Shown here in pieces: positions 8,771 to 42,316 of a DNA stretch of 64,000 nucleotides. Each line of letters begins with the position of its first letter. The stretch's first letter is position 1. The position numbers were made by a program, and so were the translations under genes. The notes under the pieces were generated by a model, which saw only the letters and a program-made list of their open reading frames with translations, did not search any database and was not told the origin of the DNA. This DNA is from Aureimonas sp. Leaf324 (GTDB lineage Bacteria > Pseudomonadota > Alphaproteobacteria > Rhizobiales > Rhizobiaceae): the NCBI RefSeq assembly GCF_001423245.1, contig NZ_LMOH01000012.1, forward strand, positions 583,679 to 647,678, in the 5' to 3' direction.

Positions 8771-10405
8771 GTGACCTTCGAGAAGCTCCGAGCAGAGTTG
8801 AGCTGCCTTCTAACCCCCGGCCGCATAGGTGAGTTCGACCACATCGAGCTGATCGAAGTGATCGGAACGCCACGTGGAGGGGCGACAATTAACGTCCTGT
8901 CCGTCGCCGTGCTGTCGGAAGGTCGCTCCGCGGTCGGAGATGCAGAACAGGCGGAGCGCCTCACTGAGCGGATTGGACGGATTGACGGCTTCAAGGATTG
9001 GTCGTTTGGCGTCATGCGCACGTTCCGGCCGGTCGCTGCCCTCGATCAGGCCTTGGCAACGCTCGCTGTCTCGGGAGAGTGGACCCTAAGCGGGCGCACG
9101 CTCGGGACGGGCACCTTGCGCCCGGAGCCCGCTATGTTCGCACCGCCAGACGGAACGGTGCCGGTTCCGCTCAATAGCGTTCTGAAGAACAACTTCTGGG
9201 CAGGATCGCATGTGTTCCGGCTCACGGACCAGGAAAAGACCCCCTTTGCCCCCTTCTTCGCCGACCGGCGACGGCTGCAGAGACTCTCTGATGCCGTTTC
9301 AGTTGGCGTGCCAATCACCTTTGCTGGCCTCGCAGATCTTCTAGGCGATGTACTGATTCAGCTTCCCGTCACGATCCTGGTGCCAAGCGTTACAGCGCCC
9401 CGCGGCGCGGTGCATTCCGACGTTGCGGTGGCATGGCGCAGCGGTGCCGCACGGCGTCCTTTAGCGACAGCCGCCCGCACCCGATGGGACGAGCTTCTAA
9501 CTGGGGCGGCGGTCAGCGAACGTTTCACGGACAGCGTCCGACTGCCCGTCGATAATCACCGTCAACCTCTGGAAACGGAGATCTGGGACGAAGGAGGCAT
9601 TTTGGTTGGAGCGACGGCCTCGACGTCGACCCTCAAGCAAATCGCGCTTGGGATGCACGTGAGTCAGCACGAACCGCGTATTTTTAATGTGCCCAACGTA
9701 AGAGGTCAGCCCGTTGCCGAGCGCGTGGAGCTCACGGAAACAACGACCAGCTTCGTTGGCACGTCGGCCGGTCAGGACGCAAATTTCTGGCTCGGTCGCC
9801 GACAGGACCTTGAGGAGAGGCGCCGGCTCGAGGCGACCCGCGACTTCGTTCAGTACCGCCCCCAGATTAACTCGACTGACGAACAGGATCGGGCTCTGGC
9901 CGACCTCCGCTTCCTCATCAACAGGCACGGCCACACCGGGGTAGATCTCTGGGACCCATACCTTTCTGCCGAAGACCTCCTCCGTACGCTGTTCTTCTGC
10001 TGCCACAGCAACGCACCCCTGCGTGCTTTGACGGACGGTCGCGATCCCCCTCGCGATGCCACGCAAGAATGCTCAACCCCGGAAGAACCGGCTGCACTGA
10101 ATCCCCCCTTTCCGGATCGGCAGAGAGTCGTCTTCGAGCGCGATGCCGGAAATCGGGAAGGGCTACGCCTTGAGTACAGGACCCGCCGAGGGCCGAAGGG
10201 CTGGCACTTCCACGATCGCTTCCTGATCTTCCCGAACCTGCGCGATGGCCCACGGGCTTGGTCGCTCGGAACCTCGGTCAACAGTCTTGGGAAAGCCCAT
10301 CACATCCTGCAGCGGGTGTCGAACCCCGCCATGGTAGCCGGGGCGTTCGAGGACCTTTGGGCGGCCTTGGACGAGCCGCAACACGTCGTGTGGAGGTCTT
10401 GGTGA
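8771..10405 (+). CDS. VPA1262-like protein with C-terminal PLD-like (HxD) motif; candidate defence protein
   Basis: A protein of about 544 residues. The N-terminal 350 residues resemble the VPA1262-type N-terminal domain as far as can be recognised from memory. The C-terminus has GWHFHDRFLIFP followed by WSLGTSVNSLGKAHHIL, a pattern like the second half of phospholipase D-fold nucleases (HxD..GSxN). The Lys of a classical HKD is not evident. The start is uncertain: the GTG at 8771 has AAGGAG about 12 nt upstream, while the ATG at 8657 has no ribosome site and adds a basic, unconserved-looking tail. Its TGA overlaps the GTG of the next gene, so the two form an operon. Role inferred from location only. 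Confidence 0.6.
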   Translation: MTFEKLRAELSCLLTPGRIGEFDHIELIEVIGTPRGGATINVLSVAVLSEGRSAVGDAEQAERLTERIGRIDGFKDWSFGVMRTFRPVAALDQALATLAVSGEWTLSGRTLGTGTLRPEPAMFAPPDGTVPVPLNSVLKNNFWAGSHVFRLTDQEKTPFAPFFADRRRLQRLSDAVSVGVPITFAGLADLLGDVLIQLPVTILVPSVTAPRGAVHSDVAVAWRSGAARRPLATAARTRWDELLTGAAVSERFTDSVRLPVDNHRQPLETEIWDEGGILVGATASTSTLKQIALGMHVSQHEPRIFNVPNVRGQPVAERVELTETTTSFVGTSAGQDANFWLGRRQDLEERRRLEATRDFVQYRPQINSTDEQDRALADLRFLINRHGHTGVDLWDPYLSAEDLLRTLFFCCHSNAPLRALTDGRDPPRDATQECSTPEEPAALNPPFPDRQRVVFERDAGNREGLRLEYRTRRGPKGWHFHDRFLIFPNLRDGPRAWSLGTSVNSLGKAHHILQRVSNPAMVAGAFEDLWAALDEPQHVVWRSW

Positions 10406-11838
10406 CAGGCGCGTCAACGATCCGGCGTCTCATTGATGTGTGGGACGGAGAAGTCGTCGCTCCAACCGTCATCGAAGGCGTGATCTCGGAGTTGGAGGCG
10501 GAGAACGCCGACCTGATGGTTGAACGCCTAGCGGCGGCGGCCCAAGCGGACCTCGGTGACGTTCCGCGCGCACTTACCACCTCGCCACGCTTCGCGGCTG
10601 ATGAAACGCTCCATCTGGCGAGACGTCTCGGCTGGACCGTGAAGACGCTCGCCGATTGGGACCCGCATCATGAACGGTCGGGCTTGCGGATTGAGGCGGC
10701 GTTGGCATCTGCGGCGGCCTGGAACTGGCATGGGGGTTTCTGGGAGGCGGCGCGGCCTCGCCTTCAAGGATGCCGCCTCACGATCGCGGCGCTTGAGATC
10801 GTGCTACGCAGACGAGCGCCGCAGACACAGGTTCCTGAAAACGCGCCGCTCTGGGAGCGCGAACATCTGCAGGCCATGCAGGAGGCTGAACGGACGCAGG
10901 ACTGGACGGAACTGAGAGAGCGTGCCCAAGCCTTCAAACAGCTTCCCCTTCCTGATCTGGGTGCGGGACAAGCAACATTGGCGCTCTCGTTTCTCGATTG
11001 GCCACGCTTGGTTCGCCTGGCCGACAAAAGCGAGGGCTGGTTGCATGGCCATCTTCTCATGGCGCCATTGCCACTCGCAGACGCCCTTCGCCTCGCGGCC
11101 GCCAGCCGGAATGGCTATGCCCGGTTCGCAGCGCTGGAACGCATCGCCTACCGGGAGGTGCGCCCGCTCCTGCCTCAGGAGGAAGTGGCACTCCGGAACC
11201 TGCTGATCGTTCTGGCTAAGGACGCGAACGAGTGGCCACGCTGGCTCACTGTGTGCAATCGCTACCCCATACGCCATCCCCATATGCAGGCCGCTTTCGG
11301 TCTGGCTCTGGCTCGCAGCGATGAACCCGCGCTCCAGGCCTATATCGACAGCATCTCATTGAGCACGTCGGATACCGATATCCGGGAGAACGTCACGCAC
11401 TGCCTGTCTGTATTTCGGGCGCGGGCCGGTGCCGGCCGGCGACGTGCGCTCTGGCGGGCAGCTTTCGAAAGATGGGAGGCCTGGGATTTCGCGAGGAACC
11501 AGGAGCAGAACCTCACCTCTCTTTCTCGGAGCGCATTGGACTACGGCGTGGTCGGCTGGCTCGTCGAGAGCCAGCCGCAAAAGTCGCTAGCCGATCTTGA
11601 ACAGACCTTCGTGGACGATCTGCGTACTTTGGACATGCAATGGCACGCCTCGCTGAGTTCGGCCGTCTCGGGCTTCGTCCGATTGGTCTCTCGGTATCAG
11701 GTTCTATCCCACGCGATACGTCGATCAGCAGGCGACGCCGACTGGCTGCCGGGTCCTGCTGTTGAGCTTCCGGCGGCAGCAACTGACGAGTTCCTCCAAA
11801 AAAAATATCGCTGGAGCGACCGCCAGATTTCAACCTGA
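10402..11838 (+). CDS. Predicted helical protein coupled to the VPA1262-like gene; function unknown
   Basis: A 478-residue protein with no recognised motif. It is rich in Ala, Leu, Arg and Trp, with repeating amphipathic stretches (EREHLQAMQEAERTQDW, WRAAFERWEAWDFARNQEQN) that suggest an all-helical repeat scaffold. There are no membrane segments. The GTG at 10402 is well supported: GGAGG lies 5 nt upstream and the start overlaps the upstream stop as GTGA, so the proteins are made together and probably interact. The longer frame from 10258 runs inside the previous gene. It may be the partner or sensor of a two-gene defence system next to Hachiman. Confidence 0.6.
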   Translation: MTGASTIRRLIDVWDGEVVAPTVIEGVISELEAENADLMVERLAAAAQADLGDVPRALTTSPRFAADETLHLARRLGWTVKTLADWDPHHERSGLRIEAALASAAAWNWHGGFWEAARPRLQGCRLTIAALEIVLRRRAPQTQVPENAPLWEREHLQAMQEAERTQDWTELRERAQAFKQLPLPDLGAGQATLALSFLDWPRLVRLADKSEGWLHGHLLMAPLPLADALRLAAASRNGYARFAALERIAYREVRPLLPQEEVALRNLLIVLAKDANEWPRWLTVCNRYPIRHPHMQAAFGLALARSDEPALQAYIDSISLSTSDTDIRENVTHCLSVFRARAGAGRRRALWRAAFERWEAWDFARNQEQNLTSLSRSALDYGVVGWLVESQPQKSLADLEQTFVDDLRTLDMQWHASLSSAVSGFVRLVSRYQVLSHAIRRSAGDADWLPGPAVELPAAATDEFLQKKYRWSDRQIST

Positions 11839-12303
11839 TAAGCTGCTGAACTGCCGATCCGCTTTTCGCACCGCATTCCCGAAAGCGGACGGTCTGAAAA
11901 CCACCCTGCCCAGAAATTATTTCCAGTTCCACAGTGGGCCGAAAGCAGCCTGTCCGCTTCTGCATCCCCGTTGCCGATAGCTGCCGTTTTGCTGACGACA
12001 ATCTTGACCGCTCGGGCACCCTCCTGCTGTCCCATGGAATTGGTTCAAAAAAAGAGCGATCAGATCGTTTGATACGGTTCAGGATATCGCTGGCCGCGCT
12101 ATTGAAAACGACCCTGTACGATCGGATGCGGCACAATCCAACACAATCCGGCAACTCGGGATCAGTCAACCAAGGCTGGCGACTTGATAAGCTGTCGGCA
12201 AGAATCTGTGGTTGCATACCTTCAATCTGTGAACGTGCTATGGCAGCTCGGCGGAGGGCGGACTGCGACCCAATAAACCCACGGCTGATCGATTGAGGTG
12301 CGT
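11839..12303. other. Intergenic region upstream of Hachiman
   Basis: About 465 bp without a gene. It holds a copy of the island palindrome (11912-11924) flanked by GCGGAC and GTCCGC pieces like those after the integrase, then moderately AT-rich sequence that should contain the hamA promoter. No -35/-10 pair stands out. Confidence 0.5.
11912..11924. repeat. Palindrome copy 2 (AGAAATTATTTCC)
   Basis: Matches GGAAATNATTTCC at all but the first base. It lies 74 bp after the stop of the helical-protein gene and is followed by AGCCTGTCCGCTTC, which resembles GGCCTGTCCGCTTC after copy 1. The two loci therefore look like remnants of one dispersed element. Confidence 0.65.
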
Positions 12304-13086
12304 ATGGGGCTGTACGAGCGGTGGTGCGAATCCACCAAAGAAGAGGACAAGCGCAGGCGCTACTGGACCTATGTCGAGAAGGACGTCGGCCGGGATGACA
12401 TCCGGGATGACCTCGCCGAGACCATTCGCTTTCACTACGACCGGCTCGAACGTATCGCTGAGGATGTTGCTCGGCTTGGCTATAAGGTAGCGGCCAAGAT
12501 CCTCAGCGAGGCGATGCCACAGACGCCCAAGGGGCGTTCCGGCGATCTCGGCGAGATACTCGCAACCGAGTTGGTGGAGGAAGAGATTGGCCTGCGAGTT
12601 CCCGTGCGCCGCCTCCGCTACAAGGACGGCCGCAACATGGCCATGCGCGGGGACGACTTTATTGGAGCGGGCTACGATGGAGCTAGTAAAAAGCTTAGGC
12701 TGCTGAAAGGCGAAGCCAAAAGCAACATGGTGCTTGGCAAGACCACGGTCACGAGCGCTCGAAAGGTGCTCAATCGCGACAACGGCCGCTGCACGCCAGA
12801 CTCCCTATTGTTCGTAGCCAATCGCCTGCTGGAAAGCGCCGACCCCGGCGACAACGAATTGGGCCGCAGTCTCCGCGATGAAGTCGGGGTAAAATCCCTT
12901 CGTGCGGATCGCATCGACCATATGCTCTTCACCGTGTCAGGCAACGGCCCCCACGCCTCACTGAAAGACGATCTCGACGCCACTGGCACCAACCGCGACC
13001 ATTACGTTGTGAACCTCCACGTCAAAGATCACCAGGACTTCATCGCGGCCATGTACCAGGAGGCGGAAAACCTTGGAGACGACTGA
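12304..13086 (+). CDS. hamA: Hachiman defence system nuclease HamA (DUF1837)
   Basis: HamA is the effector nuclease of the two-gene Hachiman system; HamB restrains it and releases it on sensing damaged phage DNA. The 260-residue protein has the DUF1837 layout, with a PD-(D/E)xK-like core in the middle: GDDFIGAGYDG followed by LLKGEAKSN (Glu-x-Lys at about residues 135-137). The start is ATG at 12304, with GAGG 5 nt upstream; GTG at 12298 is also in frame. The gene overlaps hamB by 14 nt, so translation is coupled. Assignment rests on domain match, size and the adjacent HamB-type helicase together. Confidence 0.85.
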   Translation: MGLYERWCESTKEEDKRRRYWTYVEKDVGRDDIRDDLAETIRFHYDRLERIAEDVARLGYKVAAKILSEAMPQTPKGRSGDLGEILATELVEEEIGLRVPVRRLRYKDGRNMAMRGDDFIGAGYDGASKKLRLLKGEAKSNMVLGKTTVTSARKVLNRDNGRCTPDSLLFVANRLLESADPGDNELGRSLRDEVGVKSLRADRIDHMLFTVSGNGPHASLKDDLDATGTNRDHYVVNLHVKDHQDFIAAMYQEAENLGDD

Positions 13087-16000
13087 CGAATTGACCGCCT
13101 TTTTGGCCACGGCGACAGTCGACGGCATCCTTGGGAGGCTACTTTATCGAGGTGCGGCGTGGTCGTTGATGCGCGAGGAGGGCGTGCTGCCGCCGAACGC
13201 GCCGCCCCTCGGTGCAACGATCGAAACCGATCTCGCAGAACACGGCTTCGCTGTTCTTCGAGGTGCCATGGCGTTGCGCGCTCAGGCCGGAACTTCGGAT
13301 CTGACGAACAAGGCTTTCGAGCGCGCCGCAAACGCCTTCGAAGCGCTGGTACGCAACGGAAACTCGGAAGCTCCTGATCGTGGCTTCCGCCGCACCATCG
13401 CTGCCGCAGCCTATCACCTGGCCGGCTTTTCGGCCGTTGCGTATTCGCTCTTCAGCGAGGCCGATGATGACCTTAACGCCTCGCCGGGAGAAAAGGCGAT
13501 CCGGCACTTGATCCTGCGCGATCTAGGCGAATTGCGCGGCTTCGTTCGGGATTGGTTGAACGACGAGGCTCATGGCGACGAACAGATTGCGGCGGCGCTG
13601 ACAGACGAGGAGCCCGACGTCGACGAAGTGCTATCGACCATTCTCAACACCACGATCTGCCGAGCACTGGCGCATTTTGACTTTGCGCTGGAGACGGGCG
13701 AGCCCGATCCGATCGAGATCGCGCGGAGCCTGCTTGGCACCGCAGTCAGACTGGCGGATAACGCCGAGAATGTGCCGCTGTGGTGGATATCCAATCTCTG
13801 TCGTCACCTGATCGACGATCTGTGGCAGCACTCACTGCACCAAAACCTGCCCGACGAACCGCCTGAGGGGACGGAAGAAAATTACCCCAATTTGCGCCGG
13901 CTGTTCATATCATCGCTCTACGCCCGAAAGACTTCTGAGGTGGAACTATGGCCATCTCAGCGCGAAGCGGCTCAACGTTCCACAAACGTCACTGACGACT
14001 TGGTCGTTGCCTTACCGACGAGCGCCGGCAAGACGCGGGTAGCGGAAATCGCCGCGCTGATGACTTTGTCGTTGGCGCGCAGGGTGTTGATCGTCACGCC
14101 ATTGCGTGCCTTATCGGCGCAGACCGAGCGGTCATTCCGAAAGACCTTCGCGCCTCTCGGCTTTAGTGTATCGTCACTTTACGGTGCCAGTGGTCTCTCT
14201 GCTGGTGATGAAGACGCCTTGCGGACACGCGAGATCATCATTGCTACGCCAGAAAAGCTCGATTTCGCGCTGAGAAGCGATCCTAATCTGATCGACAATG
14301 TCGGACTGATCGTCCTCGACGAGGGGCACATGATCGGTCCGAGTGAACGTGAAATCCGTTACGAGACGCTCGTGCAACGTCTGCTTCGGCGCGCGGATGC
14401 CGCGAACCGCCGGATCGTATGTCTGTCCGCTATCTTGCCAAGCGGTGACGAGCTGGACGATCTCACCGCCTGGATTCGTTCCGACGAACCGGGTGAGCCA
14501 GTGCGTTCTGACTGGCGTCCTACGCGACAGCGGTTCGGTGCGCTCACTTGGAGGGGAAAGGACGCACTGCTCCGACTAGACCTCGACGAGGATGGCCCGT
14601 TCCTCGATAAGTTTGTCGCGGAGAAACCGGCACTCGGAAGAGAGAAGAGACCCTATCCGCGCAAGAACTCACACCTTGCCCTGTTTGCAGCGTGGGAATT
14701 TGCGAGCCAAGGCAAACGGACATTGATCTTCTCCACGCAGGCGAACTGGGTCGAGAGCTACGGCAAACAGGTCGTGGATCTTTGCAAGCGTGGCTATCTG
14801 GGTTCTCTGCTGGAAAACGGAGCGTCGATCGCACGCGCCTTGGAGGTTGGCAATGAGTGGCTTGGGGAAGACCATCCCGCCGTCGCTTGCTTGAAGCAGG
14901 GCGTAGCCATCCACCATGGCCGGCTACCGAGCCCGTTTCTGCGTGAGCTGGAGACTCTTCTATCCGAGGGCGTACTTAAGGTTATCGTCGCCTCGCCAAC
15001 GCTTTCGCAAGGCCTTAATTTGAATGCCGCCGTGCTGCTGGTGCCCGCTTTGTACAGGGCCGCTGAAAAGATCAAAGGCGAGGAGTTCGCAAATGTTGCC
15101 GGCCGCGCTGGGCGCGCGTTCGTGGACGTCGAAGGCCTCATTGTCCACGTCATGTTCGACAACATCGACTGGCGAAAGAAGGAATGGAGAAAGCTGGTCG
15201 CGTCCGCCAAAGCCCGCACGTTGAAGAGCGGCCTTATCCAGATTGTTGCCCAGATCCTCGAACGCCTGTCGCGCGAGGGTGTCCTCGATCGCGATGATGC
15301 GTGGGAGTATCTCGCCAACTCCCGCGAAGCGTGGAGATCTCCCGAAGAAGAAGCCGCAGTTGCCCAGCGCCTAGCCGCAGCCGTGGACTACGGTGACGAG
15401 GATGACAGTGACGAAGAAGACAGCGGCGATGAGGAAGAAACCATCGATGAGGAGCCGCTTTCGCAAATTGTTGAACGCCTTGACGCGACTGTTTTCGGCT
15501 TGATTGAAGCGCTTGACGCCGATCGCGCCGATCTTCCGAACCTCCTCGACGAAGCGCTTAAAGGATCGCTGTGGGCTCGCCAGATTGCCCGTGAGGATGA
15601 CGATATCGCCCCGTTGCACAAGAAGGTGTTTGAGGCACGCGCCGACCTCATCTGGAAAACTACAACGGCGCAGGCGCGACGCGGACATTTCGCCATGGGT
15701 GTCGGCCTTGAAGCTGGCCTTGCAATTGATGCCATGGCCGATGGACTGAACGAGCTGATCGATCGAGCAGACCAAGCTGCATTAAGCGGCGAGGTCGACG
15801 AACTCGTCGATGCGCTCGGTGGCCTTGGCGAAAGGCTGCTCTTTATGCGGCCTTTCATTCCCGACAAGGCAAATGCACTTCCGGCGAACTGGAAGATCAT
15901 CCTACACAGTTGGGTATCCGGCGAGGAAGTCGTAAAAATCGGGCCGCAGAACATGCGAGCGGTTGAAGAGGCTTTTACCTATCGCCTAGTTTGGGCGCTC

Positions 16001-16576
16001 GAAGCCGTTAGAACCCGACGCATGTCCCTTGGCTGGTCACCGGAGACAGTGGCTGGCGGTGCCGCCTCTACGGTCGAAACGGGCGTTCCTCAATTTATGA
16101 TGGCAATGCTGATTCGCGCAGGCCTCCCCTCGAGGCGCGCAGCCAGGGCGGCGATCAACGGAGCCAAGCCTATCTTTGTTACGCCCGCCGAAATGCGGGT
16201 TTGGCTCGAATCCGATGAGATCACGGCGTACACGGATGCTGGCGACTGGCCGACGCCCGATACGGCCGCGCTGTGGGCGCGCTTTCGGACCGAAGCACTC
16301 AGCGGCAGCATTCAGAAGTGGTCGATCGAGCACTACCAGCGCCTACTCGACATTGAGGTTGCCCCGCCTGCCGGCCTTTATCGGATTGTCACCGACGAGG
16401 GTGATGGTCGGACTTGGCTGGAAACGCCCGACTATCAACGGGTCGCTCCGTTCAAGAAGCCGGCTGTTGATCCCAAGCCTAGCATATTTTCGGGCCGGCT
16501 GCCGGGCAATACTAGGCTCGTTGACTCCTTGCGGGTCGGTCGCGGAAAACTGCGTTGGCCCCGTGCCGATGCGTGA
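13073..16576 (+). CDS. hamB: Hachiman defence system DEAD/DEAH-box helicase HamB
   Basis: A 1167-residue SF2 helicase, the sensor of Hachiman. The Walker A motif is LPTSAGKTRVAEIA (about residue 315), motif II is VLDEGHMIG (about 413), motif III is LSAILPSG, and the C-terminal RecA domain has ASPTLSQGLNLN and NVAGRAGRAF (about 675), as in Ski2-like helicases. An acidic run (DEDDSDEEDSGDEEE) lies near residue 785. The first 300 residues have no motif I recognise. The start is TTG at 13073, supported by AGGAGG nine nt upstream and by its position inside the end of hamA; the next in-frame ATGs are much further downstream. Confidence 0.87.
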   Translation: METTDELTAFLATATVDGILGRLLYRGAAWSLMREEGVLPPNAPPLGATIETDLAEHGFAVLRGAMALRAQAGTSDLTNKAFERAANAFEALVRNGNSEAPDRGFRRTIAAAAYHLAGFSAVAYSLFSEADDDLNASPGEKAIRHLILRDLGELRGFVRDWLNDEAHGDEQIAAALTDEEPDVDEVLSTILNTTICRALAHFDFALETGEPDPIEIARSLLGTAVRLADNAENVPLWWISNLCRHLIDDLWQHSLHQNLPDEPPEGTEENYPNLRRLFISSLYARKTSEVELWPSQREAAQRSTNVTDDLVVALPTSAGKTRVAEIAALMTLSLARRVLIVTPLRALSAQTERSFRKTFAPLGFSVSSLYGASGLSAGDEDALRTREIIIATPEKLDFALRSDPNLIDNVGLIVLDEGHMIGPSEREIRYETLVQRLLRRADAANRRIVCLSAILPSGDELDDLTAWIRSDEPGEPVRSDWRPTRQRFGALTWRGKDALLRLDLDEDGPFLDKFVAEKPALGREKRPYPRKNSHLALFAAWEFASQGKRTLIFSTQANWVESYGKQVVDLCKRGYLGSLLENGASIARALEVGNEWLGEDHPAVACLKQGVAIHHGRLPSPFLRELETLLSEGVLKVIVASPTLSQGLNLNAAVLLVPALYRAAEKIKGEEFANVAGRAGRAFVDVEGLIVHVMFDNIDWRKKEWRKLVASAKARTLKSGLIQIVAQILERLSREGVLDRDDAWEYLANSREAWRSPEEEAAVAQRLAAAVDYGDEDDSDEEDSGDEEETIDEEPLSQIVERLDATVFGLIEALDADRADLPNLLDEALKGSLWARQIAREDDDIAPLHKKVFEARADLIWKTTTAQARRGHFAMGVGLEAGLAIDAMADGLNELIDRADQAALSGEVDELVDALGGLGERLLFMRPFIPDKANALPANWKIILHSWVSGEEVVKIGPQNMRAVEEAFTYRLVWALEAVRTRRMSLGWSPETVAGGAASTVETGVPQFMMAMLIRAGLPSRRAARAAINGAKPIFVTPAEMRVWLESDEITAYTDAGDWPTPDTAALWARFRTEALSGSIQKWSIEHYQRLLDIEVAPPAGLYRIVTDEGDGRTWLETPDYQRVAPFKKPAVDPKPSIFSGRLPGNTRLVDSLRVGRGKLRWPRADA

Positions 16577-18594: not shown

Positions 18595-18675
18595 GGGTAG
18601 CCCATCGGGAAGAGGAAGGCGAAGGGTTTGCGGTTCCGCCGTGCGCTGACGGCGGAACCGGATGGCGAAGGACGA

Positions 18676-21074: not shown

Positions 21075-21401
21075 TCAATCTTCAGTGGCGGGTCGTCCGA
21101 GGCGGTAGAAGCGGCTCAGCGTCCGGGCATAGCCGTGATGCGGCGCGAAGAGATGAAGCTGCGACGTGGCCGTCCGGGCGCCCGACCGCAGTTTGGGATG
21201 GCCCTCGACCACCCCCGTCAGGCAGGGCTGCATCCGCATGCCGAGCGCCCAGTTCTCTAGGAGCGGCGCGTCGGCAAGGTCGCGCATCGTCGGATGCGGT
21301 CCTCGGTCGATACGGGCGATGTCACGCTGGAGTTCGGTCAGGAGGTGCAGCTCCTCCTCCATATGGAGGGCGGTGCCGTTTGGCATAATGATAATGCTCA
21401 T
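21075..21401 (-). CDS. DUF6634-like small protein, 108 aa
   Basis: A small soluble protein ending with HHGYARTLSRFYRLGRP. This GxARTLSRxYRLG ending, with GHPKL and TSQLHLF before it, recalls the DUF6634 family of alphaproteobacterial mobile elements; function unknown. Its ATG overlaps the stop of the AAA+/M41 gene by 4 nt (ATGA), making it the last gene of that operon. No catalytic motif is visible; it may be an accessory or adaptor for the protease upstream. Family assignment is from memory. Confidence 0.6.
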   Translation of the reverse strand: MSIIIMPNGTALHMEEELHLLTELQRDIARIDRGPHPTMRDLADAPLLENWALGMRMQPCLTGVVEGHPKLRSGARTATSQLHLFAPHHGYARTLSRFYRLGRPATED

Positions 21402-24351: not shown

Positions 24352-24460
24352 GGCTTTCCCGTGCGCCGCGCCAGCGCATCCGGCGGCTGCGGCGAAGTTG
24401 AAGGAAGAATGGATGGAGGCTGCGGACCCGGATCGATCCGGATGCGGCGTGTCGGCTGGA

Positions 24461-26902: not shown

Positions 26903-26909
26903 CTGTCAG

Positions 26910-31053: not shown

Positions 31054-31119
31054 AGGAGATGCGCCTGCTTTGGAACCGCGTTCGTTGCCGCTTGTAAGGC
31101 CCGATGGGCGAGGGTCAAC

Positions 31120-34100: not shown

Positions 34101-34530
34101 CCTCGCCTGGAGGCCGGGGCGGCACGAAAGGACCGGGCTGGAAGCGTGGGTCGCGCCCATAGGTGCGGCGATACCAAACGCCGAGGGATCGGCAGAACTT
34201 CAGCGCGGCCAGCGCCTCGGACGGCGTGCCGCCAAGATCGTGCGCCGCCTCGTTGCCCCTCTTCCGGATCGCGTGGAAGACGTCGGCGACCTCACGCGGC
34301 AGGAGCTGCGCTCCCGACAGACGCCGCAACATCTCATGCGTCGTTTCGCGGCTGTCCCGGTCGTAGACCCCGGACAGGGCCGCGATCTCCTTCACCATGC
34401 GTTCCCCGAACTGCCGGCACTTCATCAAGGACGTGTTGGCATCCATGGCGAAGAAGCGTTCAGCCAGAACGCCAAGCCGATGCAGTTCAACGCTAAGGGG
34501 CTGGAGATGGTCGAAGTTCTGCGATGCCAC
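31120..34530 (-). CDS. hsdR: Type I restriction-modification endonuclease/translocase HsdR
   Basis: A protein of about 1136 residues, the motor and nuclease subunit. An N-terminal DUF4145-like region (FGERMVKEIAALSG, LRRLSGAQLLPREV, RKRGNEAAHDLGG) is followed by a long coiled coil, and the nuclease core VDYALFCGTVCVGVVEAKRE gives the D..ExK active site. The helicase has Walker A MATGTGKTRASIAL, motif II VDEAHRGYT, motif III TATPALH and motif VI IGRATRLC. The start was set at GTG 34530 because the extension to 34575 lacks support and the ribosome site (GGAAGA) is weak in either case. It leads the restriction operon and is divergent from zorA. Confidence 0.93.
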   Translation of the reverse strand: MASQNFDHLQPLSVELHRLGVLAERFFAMDANTSLMKCRQFGERMVKEIAALSGVYDRDSRETTHEMLRRLSGAQLLPREVADVFHAIRKRGNEAAHDLGGTPSEALAALKFCRSLGVWYRRTYGRDPRFQPGPFVPPRPPGEVDAGTQGELEALRAQVREAEARLAATKASAEELAKARAAAEELARQASEESAVWEKTAIDLEANQAELARTLAQLQAAATAKPDQQLLDVRQAGRDAAARLELDEQQTRLLVDAQLRGMGWDADSISLRHAVGARPEEGRHRAIAEWPTETGPVDYALFCGTVCVGVVEAKREAADVPSVLAQAERYAATIKLTSEEFAPDAPWQHGLDAPFRVPFVFATNGRPFVRQWLVKSGIWYRDIRRPINHALAQPEWFSPGDLLAKLKTDVDAAAQGLAEESFGSGRIRPYQEDAIAAVETALEAGQREILISMATGTGKTRASIALMYRLLKHKRFRRILFLVDRKALGKQASDALETTEIEGMLNFAQIYKVAGFDKKVPDGEDQVQVTTVQSLIARILNEPDVAKRPTPGTFDCIIVDEAHRGYTLDAELRESDIGFRSIDDYQSAYRQVLDYFDAVKIALTATPALHTREIFGHPVFHYGYRQAVVEGYLNDHLPPRRITTALSEAGIHYEGGEEVEIVDRRTGQIDLFELPDDVSLNYDLADFNRRVYSEAFNRVVAQAIAAEIPPDRPGKTLIFAARDTHADDLVRLLLEALRDEHGADAVPHAMVAKITGTVDKPDEMIRRFKNDPYPKYVVTVDLLTTGVDVPAICNLVFVRRVKSRILYDQMIGRATRLCPEIGKENFRIFDAVDLYAELQEMTDMRPVVVKPDISLGQLAVDLGKAEDEEDVNWVAGQVIVRMRSLASRMDEETRASFERHAGEPAEAAIGRLATRPGAELADWLAAHPRAVELLERRPVGVARANDGVVISTHEDELLRIEEIFGRNTTPEDYITGFERFVRENMNEIPALIAVTQRPRELTRKELTALAALLDEKNYSEAMLRAAYGRARNADIAAHIIGFVRQAALGDPLVPYAVRVERAIEQIERSRAWTPKQKDWLRRIGRALKDKPVADPSLFDQGSFADKGGFRRISQDFDGTLEDVLHAFNEAIWQTAA

Positions 34531-34843
34531 TCTTCCAGTCCCAAAAAATCCCTGGGCATACCCTAACTGGGGCAACTCAGACTGGCAAAGAATTACAAGC
34601 GGGCGTCAGCGAGCTGCATATGCGGCGTTTGAGCCTGCTCGCCGCGGATTCCATCAGATGCGGAAACTCAGCCGCCTGCGACTTTAGGGGGCAGCGCTCA
34701 ACCTCGCTATCGAGTCCGCCTAACCGCACCTAAAGCGGAAAACCTCCAAAATTTGGTGAGATCGAGCCCATACGCTTGAACTCGGCTTGAGTGGCTCGCT
34801 GTAGCCTTCTACTGATGAGGGTACAGAAATTCTCCTTTGAGTT
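34531..34843. other. Divergent control region between hsdR and zorA
   Basis: About 310 bp that should hold promoters for both operons. On the plus strand TTGAAC (34776-34781) could be a -35 box, with no clear -10. An 11-bp odd palindrome CCAAAATTTGG lies at 34746-34756 and could be an operator. No gene was seen. Confidence 0.45.
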
Positions 34844-36886
34844 ATGATTTTGGAATTGATCCTCGCTGTCGGCAATTCGGTCCGCGAGCATGTGCTCGGT
34901 GTCGCGGCCCTTCTAAAAAATCCCGCTTCTCCCGGCCTAGTCACTTTGGCTCTGATCTCGGTTTTGGTCGCAGCCATCCTCCAATTTGGGCTAACGGTCA
35001 AAAGGCGACGATCCGCACTTAACCGAGCCCAGGAAATTATTTCTTCGGCCACAGACGCGAAAACGTTCAGCAGCTCCATCTCGCGGTTCGATGCTCAGAT
35101 TCGGGCGCTAGCGGGATCCTCAGAGCAACGCCACGTCAGAGCCGCATGGAGTAAGTATAGAGAGACCCTTGTTCTCCACGAAGAGGAACACGAAACCATT
35201 TTACGCAATGCCGTCCGTCCCGCGACGTTCTTCAACCTCGAAGACTTGGGGTTTGGAGCGGGCTTCTGGCGCATTGTACCTGGACTCTTTGTATCTGTTG
35301 GCCTCTTCCTTACTTTTCTTGGCCTCATATCCGCACTCACTTCGCTTGACTTAACAACACCCGATCAGGTGCAGACGTCGTTACGCGAACTTCTAACGAT
35401 TGCCTCGGCGAAGTTCATCATGTCGCTCACAGGCTTGCTCTGTTCGATCGTTTTCACGATTGCGCTGCGCATTGGATTGGGCCGGGTTGACCAAGCCATC
35501 CACCAGCTTTGTGGAAAAATTGAACAATGCCTCACTTACATAAGCTTGGAGGCTCTGGCTGCTGAACAGCTCGCTGCAACACGTGAGCAGCGTGAACATT
35601 TCCGTCACATAGGCTTGGAACTTGTGGCGGAGCTGGGACGCCCTCTGCGCGAGGACTTGCCTTTAGCGATCTCGACTTCGATCGCCTCTGCCATGTCACC
35701 TATCCTGCAACAGGTTGGGCAAGCGGGTGCAGACGGCATGGGTTCAATGGTTAAGGACCTATCTTCCCGTTTTTCCGACGATGTCGGGCGCGCACTTTCG
35801 GATGCAAGCGCCAAGTTGGCTGAAGCTGGCGAACGGATCGGCCATCTGTCCGAACGCATGGACCAGAGTTCCGGGCGAATGGGAAGCGAGATGGACTCAG
35901 CCGTCACTCGACTTTCACAGGCGATCGAAGACTTGCGCAATTCTATGGGATCGACTGCGGAAACAGCGAGCGGCGCTCTGACCAAAGGGGCAGACCATCT
36001 CCTTTCGGTCATGAATCAAACGCTGGAGGGCATACGAGATAACACGGGAGAAGGCGCTCGGGCGATCAGCGCGGCTGCATTTGAGATGCGGGGCGCCGCT
36101 GAAATCTTCAGAACAGAGATCGAACAAGCGTCCCGCAGCGGTTCGGAAGCGGTCAATGCCAGGCTTCAGAATGCTGGCGACGACGCCAGTAACGCGATCG
36201 GCACGGCCGGCCGAGGTATGATTGAAGTTTTCGGACAAACGAGCGGAGAACTGGCTAGAGTAGCCTCCGATCTTTCGGAAAAAGCGGCTCGAGATCTTTT
36301 CGAGCCTCTTGATCGCATCTCGGAGAAGTTCAGCGTCATCTTGGACGGACTAGCAGACGGCACAACCAACCTCCGTCGCCTTTCGGACGGCATGCGAGCC
36401 GGTGCCGAGGCCAGCGAAACCGCGGCCGGCAATTTTCGCTCCGCTTCGAACGACTTCGTTCAGGCGGCAACACCGATGCGGGCGATCCACGAGCGAATCG
36501 AAGCCGCCATCCGGCAACTGTCCACCAGCACACAGACCGTCGCCGAAACGCTATCGCGGTCCGCTGAAACAACGGCGCGGAGTGCCGCTGATACGCTTGC
36601 CTCAGCAAGTCAGGTTCTCGGCGGAGAAGCTCGCGCGATCGAGTCCGCACTAAGCGGGGTTGCCACCGTCCTCGAACGGATGAAAGGCCAAGGCGACCGT
36701 CTTGACGAGATGGACGAGAAGCTCGGGCGCGCGTTCGAGATCTACAATGAACGCGTCGCTGCTGCCGTTGAAGGCATGTTCGACCATGTGCGACGAATGC
36801 AGGCCGAGCTGTCGCCGGCTCTCGACACACTACAATCCGTCGTCGAGCAAGCTGAACAGTTTGCGCCGGAAAGCCGGAGGCGCTGA
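34844..36886 (+). CDS. zorA: Zorya defence system inner-membrane motor protein ZorA
   Basis: ZorA is the MotA-like stator component of Zorya; a ZorA5-ZorB2 complex uses the ion gradient and is thought to signal phage infection at the envelope. The 680-residue protein has three predicted membrane helices (about 31-52, 143-165, 189-211), with the MotA/TolQ/ExbB-like block GLFLTFLGLISAL and FIMSLTGLLCSIVF. A very long cytoplasmic helical tail follows (about 230-680), with repeated Ala/Ser/Asp/Glu heptads, as in Zorya I. The ATG at 34844 has only a weak GAG ribosome site. The zorB start overlaps its stop. Composition is more AT-rich than the host genes. Confidence 0.92.
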   Translation: MILELILAVGNSVREHVLGVAALLKNPASPGLVTLALISVLVAAILQFGLTVKRRRSALNRAQEIISSATDAKTFSSSISRFDAQIRALAGSSEQRHVRAAWSKYRETLVLHEEEHETILRNAVRPATFFNLEDLGFGAGFWRIVPGLFVSVGLFLTFLGLISALTSLDLTTPDQVQTSLRELLTIASAKFIMSLTGLLCSIVFTIALRIGLGRVDQAIHQLCGKIEQCLTYISLEALAAEQLAATREQREHFRHIGLELVAELGRPLREDLPLAISTSIASAMSPILQQVGQAGADGMGSMVKDLSSRFSDDVGRALSDASAKLAEAGERIGHLSERMDQSSGRMGSEMDSAVTRLSQAIEDLRNSMGSTAETASGALTKGADHLLSVMNQTLEGIRDNTGEGARAISAAAFEMRGAAEIFRTEIEQASRSGSEAVNARLQNAGDDASNAIGTAGRGMIEVFGQTSGELARVASDLSEKAARDLFEPLDRISEKFSVILDGLADGTTNLRRLSDGMRAGAEASETAAGNFRSASNDFVQAATPMRAIHERIEAAIRQLSTSTQTVAETLSRSAETTARSAADTLASASQVLGGEARAIESALSGVATVLERMKGQGDRLDEMDEKLGRAFEIYNERVAAAVEGMFDHVRRMQAELSPALDTLQSVVEQAEQFAPESRRR

Positions 36887-37884
36887 TGAGAGGCGGCACT
36901 TACAAGCGCCACCATGAAGAAGAGGAAGAGTCAGTCTTCGTGGCGATGACTGACATGACCGTAAGCTTCCTCTTCGTCGTCATGATCCTCCTAGCATTCT
37001 TCGCTTCTCAGATTCAGGATGAAGACACTGTGCCGCGTGCGCAGTACCAGACACTAGAAAACGAAAGGAGCCGGCTGCAAAGTGAGCTGAACGCAGCCCT
37101 CCGCCTCCAGCAGCAGGCGGAAGATCGCCTTCGCGAACTTGAGCGGGATCTACAGCGGCAAGCGGAGGCACTCAACATCGCCATTGCAGCTAAGAATGCA
37201 GCAGACGAGCGGGTTGCGACGTTAGAGGCCGAACTAGCAAGGTTGGATCAGAAGGATCCGCTCGAGATTTATCTAGCGGAGGTGGCGGATCAACGCCGAA
37301 ATATTCTGGAAAGCCTACAGAAGCAGTTAAAGATCGATTTCCCAGACCTGCAAGTCGTGGTTAGCGAGGAACTGGATGCTCTCAGATTTAAGGGAGACGG
37401 CCTCTTCGAACGCGGAAAAAGCAGCCTTCGACCAGACAAGCGGCTAATCATCGAAAACATCGCCGCTCGCCTCGATGAAACGCTGACTTGCTTCACTCTT
37501 GGCAGCACAGCTCGTTGGAGCGAAACCTGCAACGAGATTGGTGCGGTCATCGAAGCTGTTCAGATCGAAGGGCACACCGATGCCGACGGTCCCGACAACG
37601 CGAATATTGCGCTCTCGACTGCCCGCGCCAACGAGACCTTTTTCGCCATGACGGCGCGTGTGCCGTCGCTGGTCGATCACTTCAACACACGCAACCAACC
37701 TGTCTTGTCTGTCGCGGGCTATGGGAAAATGCGCCCTATCGCGCCCAATGATACCTTGGAAGGTAAAGCGACCAATCGCCGAATTGATCTTCGGATAATT
37801 ATGTACACTCCGCGGTCAGCCGATGAAATCAGCGCGATTGCCGATAAGCTCCGCAGTGGAATCACGCATGGAGCTCCGCTTTGA
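36886..37884 (+). CDS. zorB: Zorya defence system MotB/OmpA-like protein ZorB
   Basis: A 332-residue partner of ZorA. After a short charged N-terminus (RHHEEEEES) comes one membrane helix with the conserved ion-carrying aspartate D23 in VAMTDMTVSFLFVVMILL, as in MotB and other stator proteins. A coiled coil (about 55-120) leads to a C-terminal OmpA/MotB peptidoglycan-binding domain: IEGHTDADGPDNANIALSTA, then VAGYGKMRPIAPND and NRRIDLRI. The ATG overlaps the zorA stop by 1 nt, with GGAGG 5 nt upstream. An insertion with Cys residues (TCFTLGSTARWSETCNE) sits in the OmpA domain. It anchors the ZorAB complex to peptidoglycan. Confidence 0.93.
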   Translation: MRGGTYKRHHEEEEESVFVAMTDMTVSFLFVVMILLAFFASQIQDEDTVPRAQYQTLENERSRLQSELNAALRLQQQAEDRLRELERDLQRQAEALNIAIAAKNAADERVATLEAELARLDQKDPLEIYLAEVADQRRNILESLQKQLKIDFPDLQVVVSEELDALRFKGDGLFERGKSSLRPDKRLIIENIAARLDETLTCFTLGSTARWSETCNEIGAVIEAVQIEGHTDADGPDNANIALSTARANETFFAMTARVPSLVDHFNTRNQPVLSVAGYGKMRPIAPNDTLEGKATNRRIDLRIIMYTPRSADEISAIADKLRSGITHGAPL

Positions 37885-39194
37885 TGCTCAAGGAGCTTCT
37901 GTCGCGCCCCACATCGTTCGAGGCACCTGCGCTTCCTGCTTTGAACAGGCTTATCGCGACGAAAGAACGTGTTTTGAGCCGCTGGCCGGACGTTACTCCC
38001 GAACCCGCCGAGAAGGATCGAGAACGGCTCGTAGCAGAAATGCGTAATCGAGTGGTCCGTGATCAATGGGATGGCGCTCACCTCTCGTTCGTCACAGCAG
38101 CCGCCAGAGCAACCTTCGACGCGGAACGCCAAGGGCGTTCAGATCTTGCCGAGCTTCGCGCTTTCTACGTTGACGAGATACGAGCTTCCACGAGCCGGAC
38201 GTTTCTCAGCGCTATGTCATCAGTTTACGTCGGCAGTTTCGTGCCGGGTGCGCAGCATACGATAACGCTTGCAGGGGCGCTCCAGGACGTGTTGGTCCGC
38301 ATCGGCTCCCCATGGCGTCAGCTCTTCGAACATGTCCCGGCCATTCTATCGCCAAGTGGCGCATCGAAGGCAATTGCTGAGTTGATGACGACAATGACTG
38401 ATCCTTTCAATGAACTAAAAAGGATCGGAATGCGCAGCCCCCACGCAACCGGGCTCATGGATCACGCGCATGTCGCTTACGTCGAAACCCTGGAGCGCGA
38501 GCTTTCGCAACGCGCGGGACTCGATCGGTTGTTTCAGTGGTTGAGACCTGACGGGCAGAGCGCGCGCGTGTCAGGCGGCGCGGAAGCCATCAACGCAGTG
38601 CTCGGTCACTGGCTTACCAAGAACCCAGCTGCCGCTGACGTCACCCACATCACGCAGTCGCTCATCGGGTTCTATGGCGATCCTAGGATCCAGCGGGGCG
38701 GCGCGTGGGCCGGCGTGTCCCCCGATCGTCTTGCCGTCATTCTGCGCTGGCTGACGGGCGAGAACATCAGGTTCTTTCTGGATGTGGTGTCTGCCGTAGA
38801 AGACAGTCATATGTGGGAGCCCCGGAGGCGCTTCTGGCTGAAGCTGTATGAACAGGGGCGAATCAGTGCTGCTTGGGTCGCATTCAGCAAACCTGCCGCT
38901 CAGTACGCTCGGCAGCACTCTTCAATGCACGGCAGCACAGGGATGCTAAATTTTGGCCATCAAATTGCTCGTGGCGGGCGCATGAATACTTCTCTTCTCA
39001 TTCTTAAAATCGGTCAAAAGATAGTCGTCGAGGGGTCGCATAATTATAAAGTTCATATTTTCGACGAACACAGCGTGACAAGCCCGCAACTGTATCAGCG
39101 TGGATACGACTGCGAAAAGATCCGACTTCTCCCAAAGGCCAACGCGAAATCCCATAATGGAGATTGGCAAGGTTGGGTTCTTGAAAGAGTCTAA
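37884..39194 (+). CDS. zorC: Zorya type I protein ZorC (EH-signature domain)
   Basis: A 436-residue cytoplasmic protein found only in type I Zorya, of the EH-signature family, thought to bind DNA and act with ZorD after ZorAB signalling. The C-terminal half contains the segment WGAGVSPDRLAVI-like WAGVSPDRLAVILRWLTGEN, then MWEPRRRFWLKLYEQGRIS and RQHSSMHGSTGMLNFGHQ, which define the domain. Start choice: ATG 37884, overlapping the zorB stop by 1 nt (TGATG), preferred over the TTG one codon earlier; GGAG lies 10 nt upstream. No nuclease motif is visible. Confidence 0.87.
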   Translation: MLKELLSRPTSFEAPALPALNRLIATKERVLSRWPDVTPEPAEKDRERLVAEMRNRVVRDQWDGAHLSFVTAAARATFDAERQGRSDLAELRAFYVDEIRASTSRTFLSAMSSVYVGSFVPGAQHTITLAGALQDVLVRIGSPWRQLFEHVPAILSPSGASKAIAELMTTMTDPFNELKRIGMRSPHATGLMDHAHVAYVETLERELSQRAGLDRLFQWLRPDGQSARVSGGAEAINAVLGHWLTKNPAAADVTHITQSLIGFYGDPRIQRGGAWAGVSPDRLAVILRWLTGENIRFFLDVVSAVEDSHMWEPRRRFWLKLYEQGRISAAWVAFSKPAAQYARQHSSMHGSTGMLNFGHQIARGGRMNTSLLILKIGQKIVVEGSHNYKVHIFDEHSVTSPQLYQRGYDCEKIRLLPKANAKSHNGDWQGWVLERV

Positions 39195-39205
39195 GGGCGC
39201 AAAGC

Positions 39206-42200
39206 GTGCTATTCGATATATCCTATGATGTCTCGTTCATTAAAGTGGCCTTGCGGGACGAAAAACCCGGATTGCTTGCTCGCCTCTTTCAAAGACGGCA
39301 GTCGGCTGATCTTGCAAATCTCCCGTTGAATGATCGAACTCTTCTGCTGGCCCTTGCCGATCTGAGAGCTCTGGCTGATGAGCATGGCGGCGAACTCGAT
39401 ATCGGGTCGAGTCACATCCAAATGTCTCATTCGCTGGCCGCCAGACTTCCTGGCAAGACGGCAGCAACGCTCGGCCTTCCCGACATCGTCGATCTCACGC
39501 TCCGCACCGACGTGGAAGGGGTTTTGGGCACGCCATCATTTAGACTGCGCCATGAGTGGACCAAGAATGGGCAACGCCAGCTCCCCCAACGAACCGGAGC
39601 TATATTGGAAACGTCCGACGGTCTGCGACGACTTCCGCTCTGGCTCATGGAAGCCATCGAGGTAGCAGAGGACTTTCGCCCCGGGTCTGACGATAAGGCA
39701 CATTGGGCAGCGCTTGCGCGGTTTCGACAAGCCTTGGATCCTGGCGTAACCGTTTCGAACGATAGCGGTGCTGCAAAAGCATCGATGACAGATTTCCTTG
39801 CTGGCCTGCAAGTCCGGGTGGCTGATCGCTTTTCGGTTGCAGCATCAGCGGACGGAAACGACTTCGAAGTTGTGCCGTTTCACAGCAGGGTTTTGGAAAG
39901 AGAGACGTCATTCGCTGAAGATGGAAGCGTTTCGGAGGATCATGGCGAACTCAATGGGGAGGAGCTGGCTCTGTTTCAGAACCGTGTGCGGGATCGTGGC
40001 GCCTTATCCGCCTACCGGCTTGGCAGCGGCAATTATATCGTCGTCGATCCAGCAGCCACGACAGCTCTCGAAGTCATGACGCAGATGCAGCGCGCCCCTG
40101 TGACTGAGCGCGCAGCCTTCATTCGAAATCCCCGCGCTCGAATTACTGAAGCGGTCGAAGGTCACCTTCGAAGAAGCGGCGCCTTCGATGGGTTGAGCGA
40201 AGAGGCTATTGAAGAGACCGTAGAACGAGCGGCCGGCCCGATGTTCGTCGAAACGCGGGAGTTCTCTCAACGCGTCATCGGTAAGAGGGTTTTTGAGAAG
40301 ACCGATCTCGGTCCTGAGATCAGCGATCCGACAACATGGATGCCGGAAGAGTTCGCTCGTCGTCTCAACGATGCTCTTTCTTCCATGAGCGAGCTTGAGC
40401 TGAAGGATTTGCGTGATCGCGTTGAGCAATCTATCCAATCCGCTAGCCCTGACGTCGAAATCGAGGACTTCAGCATTCCAGCTCGACCGGAGGCCTTAAG
40501 CACGATCGATCGTCACTTGGCAGATCGGGCTAGAGGCCTTGAAGAGGAAGCAGCGAACTTCGAACACGAACAGGTACAATCCGGATCCATTGTCCTCGAT
40601 ACGGTGGTGAATTTCAAAGACCTGCTTTGGGAAAGCCTACTGAAGCCTCGTACGTCGAGGATCGATGACAATGTACCTCCCTCGATTCGAACGCCCTTGA
40701 AGCTGCATCAGATCGAAAGCTTAAATTGGCAGATAGCCGCTTGGAAGGCGGGCTTACCCGGCGTGTTGAACGCGGACGAACAAGGCCTCGGTAAAACGCT
40801 CCAGACGATTGCGTTTCTCGTCTGGCTTAAAACCCATCTTGCAGACTCACAAGGTATGAAGAATGGACCCGTTCTCGTCGTCGCCCCAACATCCCTCCTT
40901 GAGAATTGGGAGCAAGAAGTTGCGCGCCATGTGCAGGAACCAGGTTTAGGTCATCTTATCCGGCTTTACGGTACGGCTACCGGCACGCGCAAAATCTCGG
41001 GGGCCCGTGGACGAGACATAGAGACGGGCGAAGCTAAGCTCGACCTTGATTTTCTGCATGAAGCGATCGCAGAGGATCGAGCTCATCGTTTCTGGATCCT
41101 TACCACTTACACGACGCTGACAAACTATCAGCACTCTCTTGCAGCCGTGCCGTTCTCGACCGTCGTTTTCGACGAGATTCAAGCTGTGAAGAATCCTGAC
41201 AGCCTGCGTGCACACGCGGCTCGGTCGATCAACGCGGACTTTCGTATCGGGCTGACCGGCACCCCAATCGAAAACAGCGCTGTCGATCTGTGGGCCATCA
41301 TGGATCAACTCGCACCTGGATCACTTGAAAGTCTCAAGGCGTTTCGCCAGCGATACGCGGTCCCCGACGAAACCAACATGGAGGACTTGCATCGCCGGGT
41401 CTTCAAAAAGGACGGTGCACGGCCTCCTCTCGCTCTAAGGCGATTGAAGGAGGAGGTCGCCAAAGATCTTCCTGAGAAAAGCCGCCGTTTACATCCGCGC
41501 TTAATGCCGACGAAGCAAGCCATCGTCTACGAAGATGCGCGATTAAAACTTGCCAATGGCGGCCCTGGTGCCGCTTTGAAAATGTTGCATCACATCCGGA
41601 CGGTCTCCGTCCATCCGTCCCTCGACGAACCTTCGAGCGACGAAGGTTTCATAGCAGCGTCAGGACGCGTTCAGGCAGCATTCGATGTCCTGCGAAAGAT
41701 CGCCGCGCAAGGTGAGCGGGCATTGGTCTTCATCGAACATCGGCAGATGCAGTACCGATTCATCGAGTTGGCTCGAGCCGATCTGAAACTTTCCCACATC
41801 GACCTGATCAATGGCGACACTCCCATTCCGAAGCGCCAAGCCATCGTTAACCGCTTCCAAAGACACATAGAAGATGACCGGGGATTCGATCTTCTCGTTC
41901 TTGGCCCTAAAGCAGCCGGAACGGGCCTCACCTTAACGGCGGCTACCCATGTGATCCACCTTTCGCGCTGGTGGAATCCTGCTGTTGAAGAGCAATGCAA
42001 CGATCGAGTGCACCGCCTAGGCCAAACGCGACCCGTGACCATTCACATGCCGATGGCCATTCACCCTGGCTATCTCGAAAACTCCTTCGATTGTCTTTTA
42101 CATAGCCTGATGCAGCGCAAGCGAAAGCTGGCCGCTTCGGCGCTTTGGCCAATGGGAGACACGCAGGGCGACACCGCGGAACTTCAGAAGATGCTCTCGG

Positions 42201-42316
42201 CAGAAAAGAGCGATGCTGATGCAGATCCCCTCATGCGATCGGTTGAAGCGATGTTCCGCCGAGACGGTCAGTCCCCTCCTGTCTTCTCCGGCGATGGATC
42301 GGTGCCGCTTCGTTGA
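39206..42316 (+). CDS. zorD: Zorya type I helicase-nuclease ZorD (SNF2 family)
   Basis: A 1036-residue Snf2-type protein. ZorD degrades phage DNA once the membrane complex signals. After an N-terminal region of about 480 residues without recognised motif, the helicase core has the Q-like LHQIESLNWQ, Walker A NADEQGLGKTLQTIAF (about 522-537), VVAPTSLLENWEQE, motif II FDEIQAVKN (about 655), motif III LTGTPIENSAVDLW and the C-terminal GPKAAGTGLTLTAATHVIH with RVHRLGQTRPV (about 935). The DEIQ box in place of DEAH is normal for this group. The start is GTG at 39206, 11 bp after zorC, with AAGGG 8 nt upstream. The complete zorABCD set indicates a functional type I system. Confidence 0.92.
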   Translation: MLFDISYDVSFIKVALRDEKPGLLARLFQRRQSADLANLPLNDRTLLLALADLRALADEHGGELDIGSSHIQMSHSLAARLPGKTAATLGLPDIVDLTLRTDVEGVLGTPSFRLRHEWTKNGQRQLPQRTGAILETSDGLRRLPLWLMEAIEVAEDFRPGSDDKAHWAALARFRQALDPGVTVSNDSGAAKASMTDFLAGLQVRVADRFSVAASADGNDFEVVPFHSRVLERETSFAEDGSVSEDHGELNGEELALFQNRVRDRGALSAYRLGSGNYIVVDPAATTALEVMTQMQRAPVTERAAFIRNPRARITEAVEGHLRRSGAFDGLSEEAIEETVERAAGPMFVETREFSQRVIGKRVFEKTDLGPEISDPTTWMPEEFARRLNDALSSMSELELKDLRDRVEQSIQSASPDVEIEDFSIPARPEALSTIDRHLADRARGLEEEAANFEHEQVQSGSIVLDTVVNFKDLLWESLLKPRTSRIDDNVPPSIRTPLKLHQIESLNWQIAAWKAGLPGVLNADEQGLGKTLQTIAFLVWLKTHLADSQGMKNGPVLVVAPTSLLENWEQEVARHVQEPGLGHLIRLYGTATGTRKISGARGRDIETGEAKLDLDFLHEAIAEDRAHRFWILTTYTTLTNYQHSLAAVPFSTVVFDEIQAVKNPDSLRAHAARSINADFRIGLTGTPIENSAVDLWAIMDQLAPGSLESLKAFRQRYAVPDETNMEDLHRRVFKKDGARPPLALRRLKEEVAKDLPEKSRRLHPRLMPTKQAIVYEDARLKLANGGPGAALKMLHHIRTVSVHPSLDEPSSDEGFIAASGRVQAAFDVLRKIAAQGERALVFIEHRQMQYRFIELARADLKLSHIDLINGDTPIPKRQAIVNRFQRHIEDDRGFDLLVLGPKAAGTGLTLTAATHVIHLSRWWNPAVEEQCNDRVHRLGQTRPVTIHMPMAIHPGYLENSFDCLLHSLMQRKRKLAASALWPMGDTQGDTAELQKMLSAEKSDADADPLMRSVEAMFRRDGQSPPVFSGDGSVPLR

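Follow-up and report, generated by a model that had tools for sequence, protein, structure and literature searches.

The 64,000-nucleotide window analysed here (NCBI RefSeq assembly GCF_001423245.1, contig NZ_LMOH01000012.1, positions 583,679 to 647,678) belongs to the genome of Aureimonas sp. Leaf324, which comprises 4.4 Mb in 30 contigs and is 99.93% complete. The window carries a 37.6-kb integrative element inserted in a tRNA-Gln gene (Table 1). Within it, Hachiman, type I restriction–modification (R–M) with HNH and Mrr partners and type I Zorya are accompanied by two operons, operon A (8771–11838) and operon B (21075–25516), which searches of Pfam, NCBIfam, PHROGs and PADLOC tied to no other role. 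Coordinates are those of the window throughout.

Table 1 Features of the tRNA-Gln element and its borders
Feature	Position	Strand	Basis
tRNA-Gln (CTG), integration target	5976..6049	+	ARAGORN; Rfam
attL, 23-bp direct repeat, tRNA-Gln 3' end	6030..6052	+	empty site in relative G266
Tyrosine integrase	6195..8357	+	DUF6538 above cut-off; PHROG integrase 6.2e-12; HALRH motif
87-column imperfect direct repeat, left copy	8351..8434		direct comparison
Operon A gene 1, VPA1262_N protein, 544 aa	8771..10405	+	NF040700 287 bits (cut-off 80); structure model
Operon A gene 2, predicted all-helical solenoid-like partner, 478 aa	10402..11838	+	4-bp overlap with gene 1; structure model
87-column imperfect direct repeat, right copy	11913..12000		direct comparison
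HamA (Hachiman nuclease)	12298..13086	+	PDLC00159 E 2e-111; Pfam HamA; GEAK
HamB (Hachiman helicase)	13073..16576	+	PDLC00174 1644 bits, E 0
IS4/5-type transposase	17292..18164	-	profile match
Two genes, 135 and 487 aa, without convincing family	18187–20139	-	between IS4/5-type transposase and operon B
Operon B DUF6634	21075..21401	-	40.7 bits (cut-off 27)
Operon B AAA+ ATPase fused to M41 zinc protease, FtsH-like	21398..23890	-	AAA + Peptidase_M41; HEAGH
Operon B small conserved protein, 147 aa	23890..24333	-	conserved in aligned loci
Operon B gene 1, predicted PD-(D/E)xK-type protein	24461..25516	-	D163, D178-x-K180 invariant in 9/9
Mrr (type IV restriction)	25970..26902	-	E 1.6e-104; Pfam Mrr_N + Mrr_cat
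HNH endonuclease	26910..28136	-	PHROG endonuclease best E 1.2e-14; start overlaps hsdS stop
HsdS	28133..29671 (listed frame)	-	profiles; true start probably near 29515 (by eye)
HsdM	29509..31053	-	profiles; NPPF motif
HsdR (EcoEI-type C-terminus)	31120..34575	-	profiles; GTGKT, DEAH motifs
ZorA	34844..36886	+	E 0
ZorB	36886..37884	+	E 1.4e-120
ZorC	37881..39194	+	E 5.9e-192
ZorD	39206..42316	+	E 0; GLGKT motif
attR, 23-bp direct repeat	43610..43632	+	second copy of tRNA-Gln 3' end

The element was delimited as 6030–43632 because the 23-bp repeat stands at both of its ends, an integrase is the first gene after the tRNA, and a relative has an empty tRNA-Gln site. In that relative, G266, the closest found, the left flank through the tRNA is joined directly to the right flank, with the repeat common to both. 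The site of G262 is similar, with approximately 330 bp after the repeat unmatched; G252 and G264 carry different sequence there, and G265 has the tRNA with no match to the right flank of the window. The integrase matches DUF6538 above the cut-off and Phage_integrase below it. The proportion of G + C is 0.54–0.68 within the element versus mostly 0.67–0.72 in its flanks. An earlier sequence-only reading had placed a single defence element at 8771–42316; the single element stands, with borders wider than proposed. In G257, the same 23-bp repeat stands on both sides of a different, 18.4-kb insert (L084, 496–18920). By eye, this insert contains a 1075-aa frame and, at its right end, one of 412 aa that resembles an integrase; it looks like a small prophage.

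Profile searches, PADLOC among them, recognised the ham, hsd and zor genes named in that reading, and Hachiman, type I R–M, Mrr and type I Zorya are each present with complete gene sets in the expected order. All the named ham, hsd, mrr, HNH and zor genes are full-length open frames, and the ham, hsd, mrr and zor scores are far past chance. HamA (DUF1837) adjoins the HamB helicase, the two frames overlapping, and has the GExK nuclease motif as GEAK at residue 138; HamB keeps DEGH, and its Walker loop reads TSAGKT by eye, which a pattern search missed. One published Hachiman study, available in two versions, describes HamB as a helicase that senses DNA damage and HamA as the nuclease (PMC12278908, PMC10925250). 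HsdR, HsdM and HsdS make up the type I system and Mrr, with Mrr_N and Mrr_cat, the type IV one. The HNH gene has family support from PHROGs only, with none from Pfam, NCBIfam or PADLOC. Pattern searches did not find [FL]xGxG in HsdM, nor DEAH or DECH in ZorD. Overlaps of one to four bases mark the junctions zorAB, zorBC, hsdS–HNH and gene 1–gene 2 of operon A. Compared with the usual Hachiman, Zorya and type I and IV restriction systems, the sets are the same and equally complete; the difference lies in the HNH and Mrr genes within the hsd operon. The open-licence literature held no paper combining defense island, Zorya, Hachiman and Rhizobi. The packing of known systems, described earlier as dense, is not uniformly so, because 17292–20139 holds an IS4/5-type transposase and two genes with no convincing family match in Pfam, NCBIfam or PHROGs. 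Both additional operons exist as reported; operon A precedes Hachiman rather than lying between systems.

Operon A encodes two proteins. In the structure model, gene 1 is predicted to consist of a beta-sandwich part followed by a phospholipase D (PLD)-like domain at residues ~350–544, and the predicted fold of this C-terminal part is of PLD type. The motif H481-D-R483 was found in 46/46 aligned sequences and P488 in 45/46. The canonical motif of active PLD enzymes, HxK(x)4D, is not present: HxR stands in place of HxK and no D follows. Compared with nucleases of the PLD superfamily (NucT, Nuc and the PLD domain of SauUSI), operon A would add the beta-sandwich part and a coupled helical partner. 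Although gene 1 carries the N-terminal domain of the VPA1262 family, it fails the full-family model NF040699 (11 versus a cut-off of 325 bits). That model covers 1026 positions, and the only full-length member compared here, a 1103-aa frame, aligns weakly with gene 1; by eye, this member has a PLD-like middle and shares the motifs LDPYF and HDRYILI with gene 1. It was considered as a natural fusion of the two genes, and hence as proof of their contact, and was rejected, its C-terminal half being unalignable to the gene 2 profile.

Gene 2 is modelled as a helical solenoid. It has no Pfam or NCBIfam match, a best PHROGs match of only E 0.094, and no match at E < 0.001 in PDB or BFVD. For neither gene did profile searches against solved structures yield a convincing match, and PADLOC 2.0.0 gave 0 families up to 0.01 for both, searched as the longer frames 8657–10405 and 10258–11838. 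In the open-licence literature, judging by the passages retrieved, VPA1262 occurs in Vibrio papers, none of them about defence; phospholipase D combined with HEAT repeat and anti-phage returned CoCoNuT work only, and combined with two-gene, defense system and phage it returned fungal papers only. A 120-aa frame at 11934–12296 matches neither a Pfam nor a PADLOC family and is probably spurious.

The two genes are inherited together. A scan of 84,980 species genomes gave 48 operon A loci and one of IMG/VR a further 3; these counts are lower bounds, since each scan used two peptide patterns. Gene 1 is followed by gene 2 in 46/51 loci, and in 46/47 where downstream sequence is present: four of the five loci without it have gene 1 ending less than 100 bp from a contig edge, and the fifth (L065) has ~1.6 kb of unmatched sequence. 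Among the 46 pairs, one is cut at a contig edge (L038), one has gene 2 in two pieces (L056) and one gene 1 in two pieces (L040). Both genes are also present at six plasmid loci, separated at one of them by an IS630 copy. Searching with gene 2 alone by tblastn found only 2 plasmid records, the remaining pairs requiring a profile. Relatives occur in Proteobacteria and in records titled as Acidobacteria-, Bacteroidota- and Melainabacteria-type; NF040700 matched 4/249 genomes of the order, 2 of them above cut-off, and the phage collection contains one record (32% identity). The protein distances of genes 1 and 2 are correlated (r 0.92 over 41 loci), and codon changes show a purifying pattern. Operon A is a conserved module, with strong evidence for one functional unit.

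The cassette has also been transferred alone, without the rest of the island. Its best named match is in Aurantimonas sp. Leaf443, where no ham genes accompany it and where a copy of ~3.5 kb is 99.5% identical to window positions 8430–11906 over 3477 bp. By blastn, the remainder of the 21.6-kb Leaf443 locus has no other match in the window; next to the cassette, two stretches of the locus match the window's own genome only weakly or over short lengths.

Cassette A is flanked by two copies of an 87-column imperfect direct repeat, which end 336 bp before the start of operon A and 298 bp before that of hamA. Their alignment scores 29, whereas none of 4950 random pairs drawn from the island scored above 19. 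A 17-bp core occurs at exactly two sites in the genome, also with one mismatch allowed; this count alone is unstriking, because a backward-read control also has 2 sites with up to one mismatch, and it is the placing that is striking. The repeat is gapped, with an exact core of 13 bases, and was detected by direct comparison; a repeat scan of the island found none when seeds of 14 bases and a 40-base minimum were set. It may represent either recombination borders or common upstream regions of the two operons. A promoter was considered and rejected, there being no sigma-70-like site in the repeat, as was a structured RNA: the folding z was -2.2 for the left copy and only -0.7 for the right, with no Rfam family besides the tRNA.

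Operon B is likewise a conserved module. Its genes run from the putative PD-(D/E)xK protein through the 147-aa and AAA-M41 proteins to DUF6634. Gene 1 is assigned to its class by a D...(D/E)xK sequence motif, its profile matching no PDB chain up to E 1; the key residues of both predicted enzymes are conserved in the aligned sequences. Gene 1 was found at 17 loci (8 of 11 plasmid records, 1 viral contig and 8 genomes besides its own). Gene 2 and the AAA-M41 part follow it in the same order in 13/17, the record of L018 ending within the AAA gene. AAA and M41 are encoded separately in 11/13 and joined in one chain, like that of the window, in L134; neither arrangement was seen in L018. Four distant loci (L130, L135, L136 and L137) do not have the operon B order; three have a DUF6634 gene nearby. 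DUF6634 genes were observed between or near the operon B genes in L133, L134, L130, L135 and L136, and in L130 and L136 a frame that resembles a phosphoesterase by eye stands between gene 1 and the DUF6634 gene. Four rhizobial plasmids (L014, L015, L016 and L021) have annotated WGR domain genes no more than a few kb from operon B.

The AAA-M41 protein shares with FtsH the AAA and Peptidase_M41 domains and HEAGH, but no 19-residue stretch exceeds 1.63 on the Kyte-Doolittle scale in 7/7 (ZorA reaches 2.48). The name FtsH was rejected (TIGR01241, 179 versus 600 bits needed), as was IetA (NF042959, 90.8 versus 510 bits; PADLOC IetA matches fall within the AAA region). PMC12799240 describes nuclease–protease pairs in Hachiman, AVAST, Lamassu and DRT which unite an MBL-fold nuclease with a trypsin-like protease. 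Operon B similarly appears to join a nuclease-type protein to a protease, whereas its members are a predicted PD-(D/E)xK protein and an AAA+/M41 zinc protease; FtsH, AAA and M41 do not occur in the main text of that paper. The open-licence literature had no paper on DUF6634. Among the matches listed, the M41 term occurred in none for peptidase M41, defense island and phage, and FtsH-like occurred, within the passages retrieved, in one paper for FtsH-like with defence terms.

Both operons sit among genes that match more PADLOC families than controls do. At E 1e-10, 97 neighbours of operon A matched 123 families and 83 neighbours of operon B matched 114, compared with 7 for 95 control genes from 15 arbitrary stretches of related genomes, where the commonest match was the mad3 model (6 genes). 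The matches listed beside operon A include reverse transcriptase (RT)/DRT, homing endonuclease, Cas1, Thoeris, Avs2, CBASS cyclase and effector, and PD-T4-6; those beside operon B include type III, IIG and IV restriction, SoFic and methylases. Ten large neighbours of operon A scanned singly gave matches in 2 (a candidate family at 3e-12; helicase-type families at 2e-24 or weaker). Two points limit this comparison: the counts are of families and not of genes, one methylase or RT matching many PADLOC families, and part of the excess may reflect mobile DNA only, because the controls were chromosomal rather than matched mobile elements. The earlier proposal that the operons are candidates for new defence functions is supported: the ham, hsd and zor genes were confirmed by profile, neither operon was tied to another role in the databases searched, and both recur as discrete modules of the same order amid PADLOC-rich neighbours.

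The tRNA-Gln element is a defence element in which two further modules accompany Hachiman, type I Zorya and the type I R–M system with its HNH and Mrr partners. We consider it probable, if well short of assured, that operon A serves as a self-contained anti-invader cassette of two genes, which is its most likely role. The effector would be gene 1: its PLD-like C-terminal domain would act on nucleic acid via the invariant H-D-R centre, and its N-terminal beta-sandwich part would serve in sensing or docking. The gene 2 solenoid would scaffold or restrain gene 1, letting it go once phage or plasmid DNA has been sensed. The pair is compact and transferable, its borders drawn by a natural 3.5-kb transfer, and it can be cloned as it stands; should it protect, it would add a system in which the PLD-type effector has an active centre unlike the textbook motif. 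Within the island, an ordinary defence element, operon A is the foremost new candidate and operon B a weaker second lead. For operon B we propose, with less certainty, that the AAA+/M41 protease activates or removes the PD-(D/E)xK nuclease.

The strongest competitor concerns operon B, which could be a plasmid or element maintenance module, with a protease-controlled nuclease serving competition or inheritance and no phage defence. This is a plausible account that falls somewhat short of probable. Operon B recurs on rhizobial plasmids, adjoining repABC on the NT-25 and TCK plasmids; gene 1 occurs in 9/397 genomes of the order, 5 of them, its own included, in the window's family; and the phage collection gave no match up to E 0.001. 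Set against this are the PADLOC-rich neighbours described above, Mrr-type models among their matches, and the relative on a viral contig. Slightly more tentative still is the view that the island holds two undescribed defence systems, a solenoid-restrained H-D-R PLD cassette and a nuclease governed by an AAA+/M41 protease without an obvious membrane anchor. Operon B would then be a new protease-gated nuclease immunity, its protease and nuclease both unrelated to those of the pairs already described, and would extend protease-gated immunity to AAA+ zinc proteases.

Operon A could instead be a toxin–antitoxin or stabilisation module of mobile elements, in which a harmful gene 1 product would be neutralised by gene 2 and cells that lose the cassette would be punished. 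The near-obligate pair with its coupled start agrees with this, as does plasmid carriage in 7 records. So do the neighbours, an antitoxin gene in Gluconobacter and, in Bradyrhizobium, a mobile mystery A/B pair, which we take to be toxin–antitoxin-like. However, chromosomal contigs also carry operon A, the usual toxin–antitoxin proteins are smaller than both of its products, and phage defence and toxin–antitoxin roles can overlap; we regard this explanation as rather unlikely. It is more doubtful again that both operons are passengers of a mobile element without defence function: the island does contain a transposase and genes without clear family match, but the purifying pattern, co-inheritance and retention of the operon A pair over a wide taxonomic range, and the gene order kept in operon B, speak against it. 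That operon A is an accessory of this Hachiman system with no system of its own is very improbable and was rejected: it lies directly upstream of hamA on the same strand, ~460 bp off, with the repeat placed alike before both, yet the Leaf443 cassette stands without ham and no HamA/HamB relative was found in the flanks of 57 other gene 1 loci (up to 10 kb per side, less on short contigs; blastp 1e-8, coverage 40%).

The HsdS–HNH coupling recurs in one of the three plasmid contexts examined, a Paracoccus seriniphilus plasmid (L138, 4161–7369), where HsdS is followed by an overlapping 489-aa protein whose end is like the HNH domain in the window. At the right end of the island, two overlapping frames at 42363–43396 resemble an IS630-type transposase by eye.

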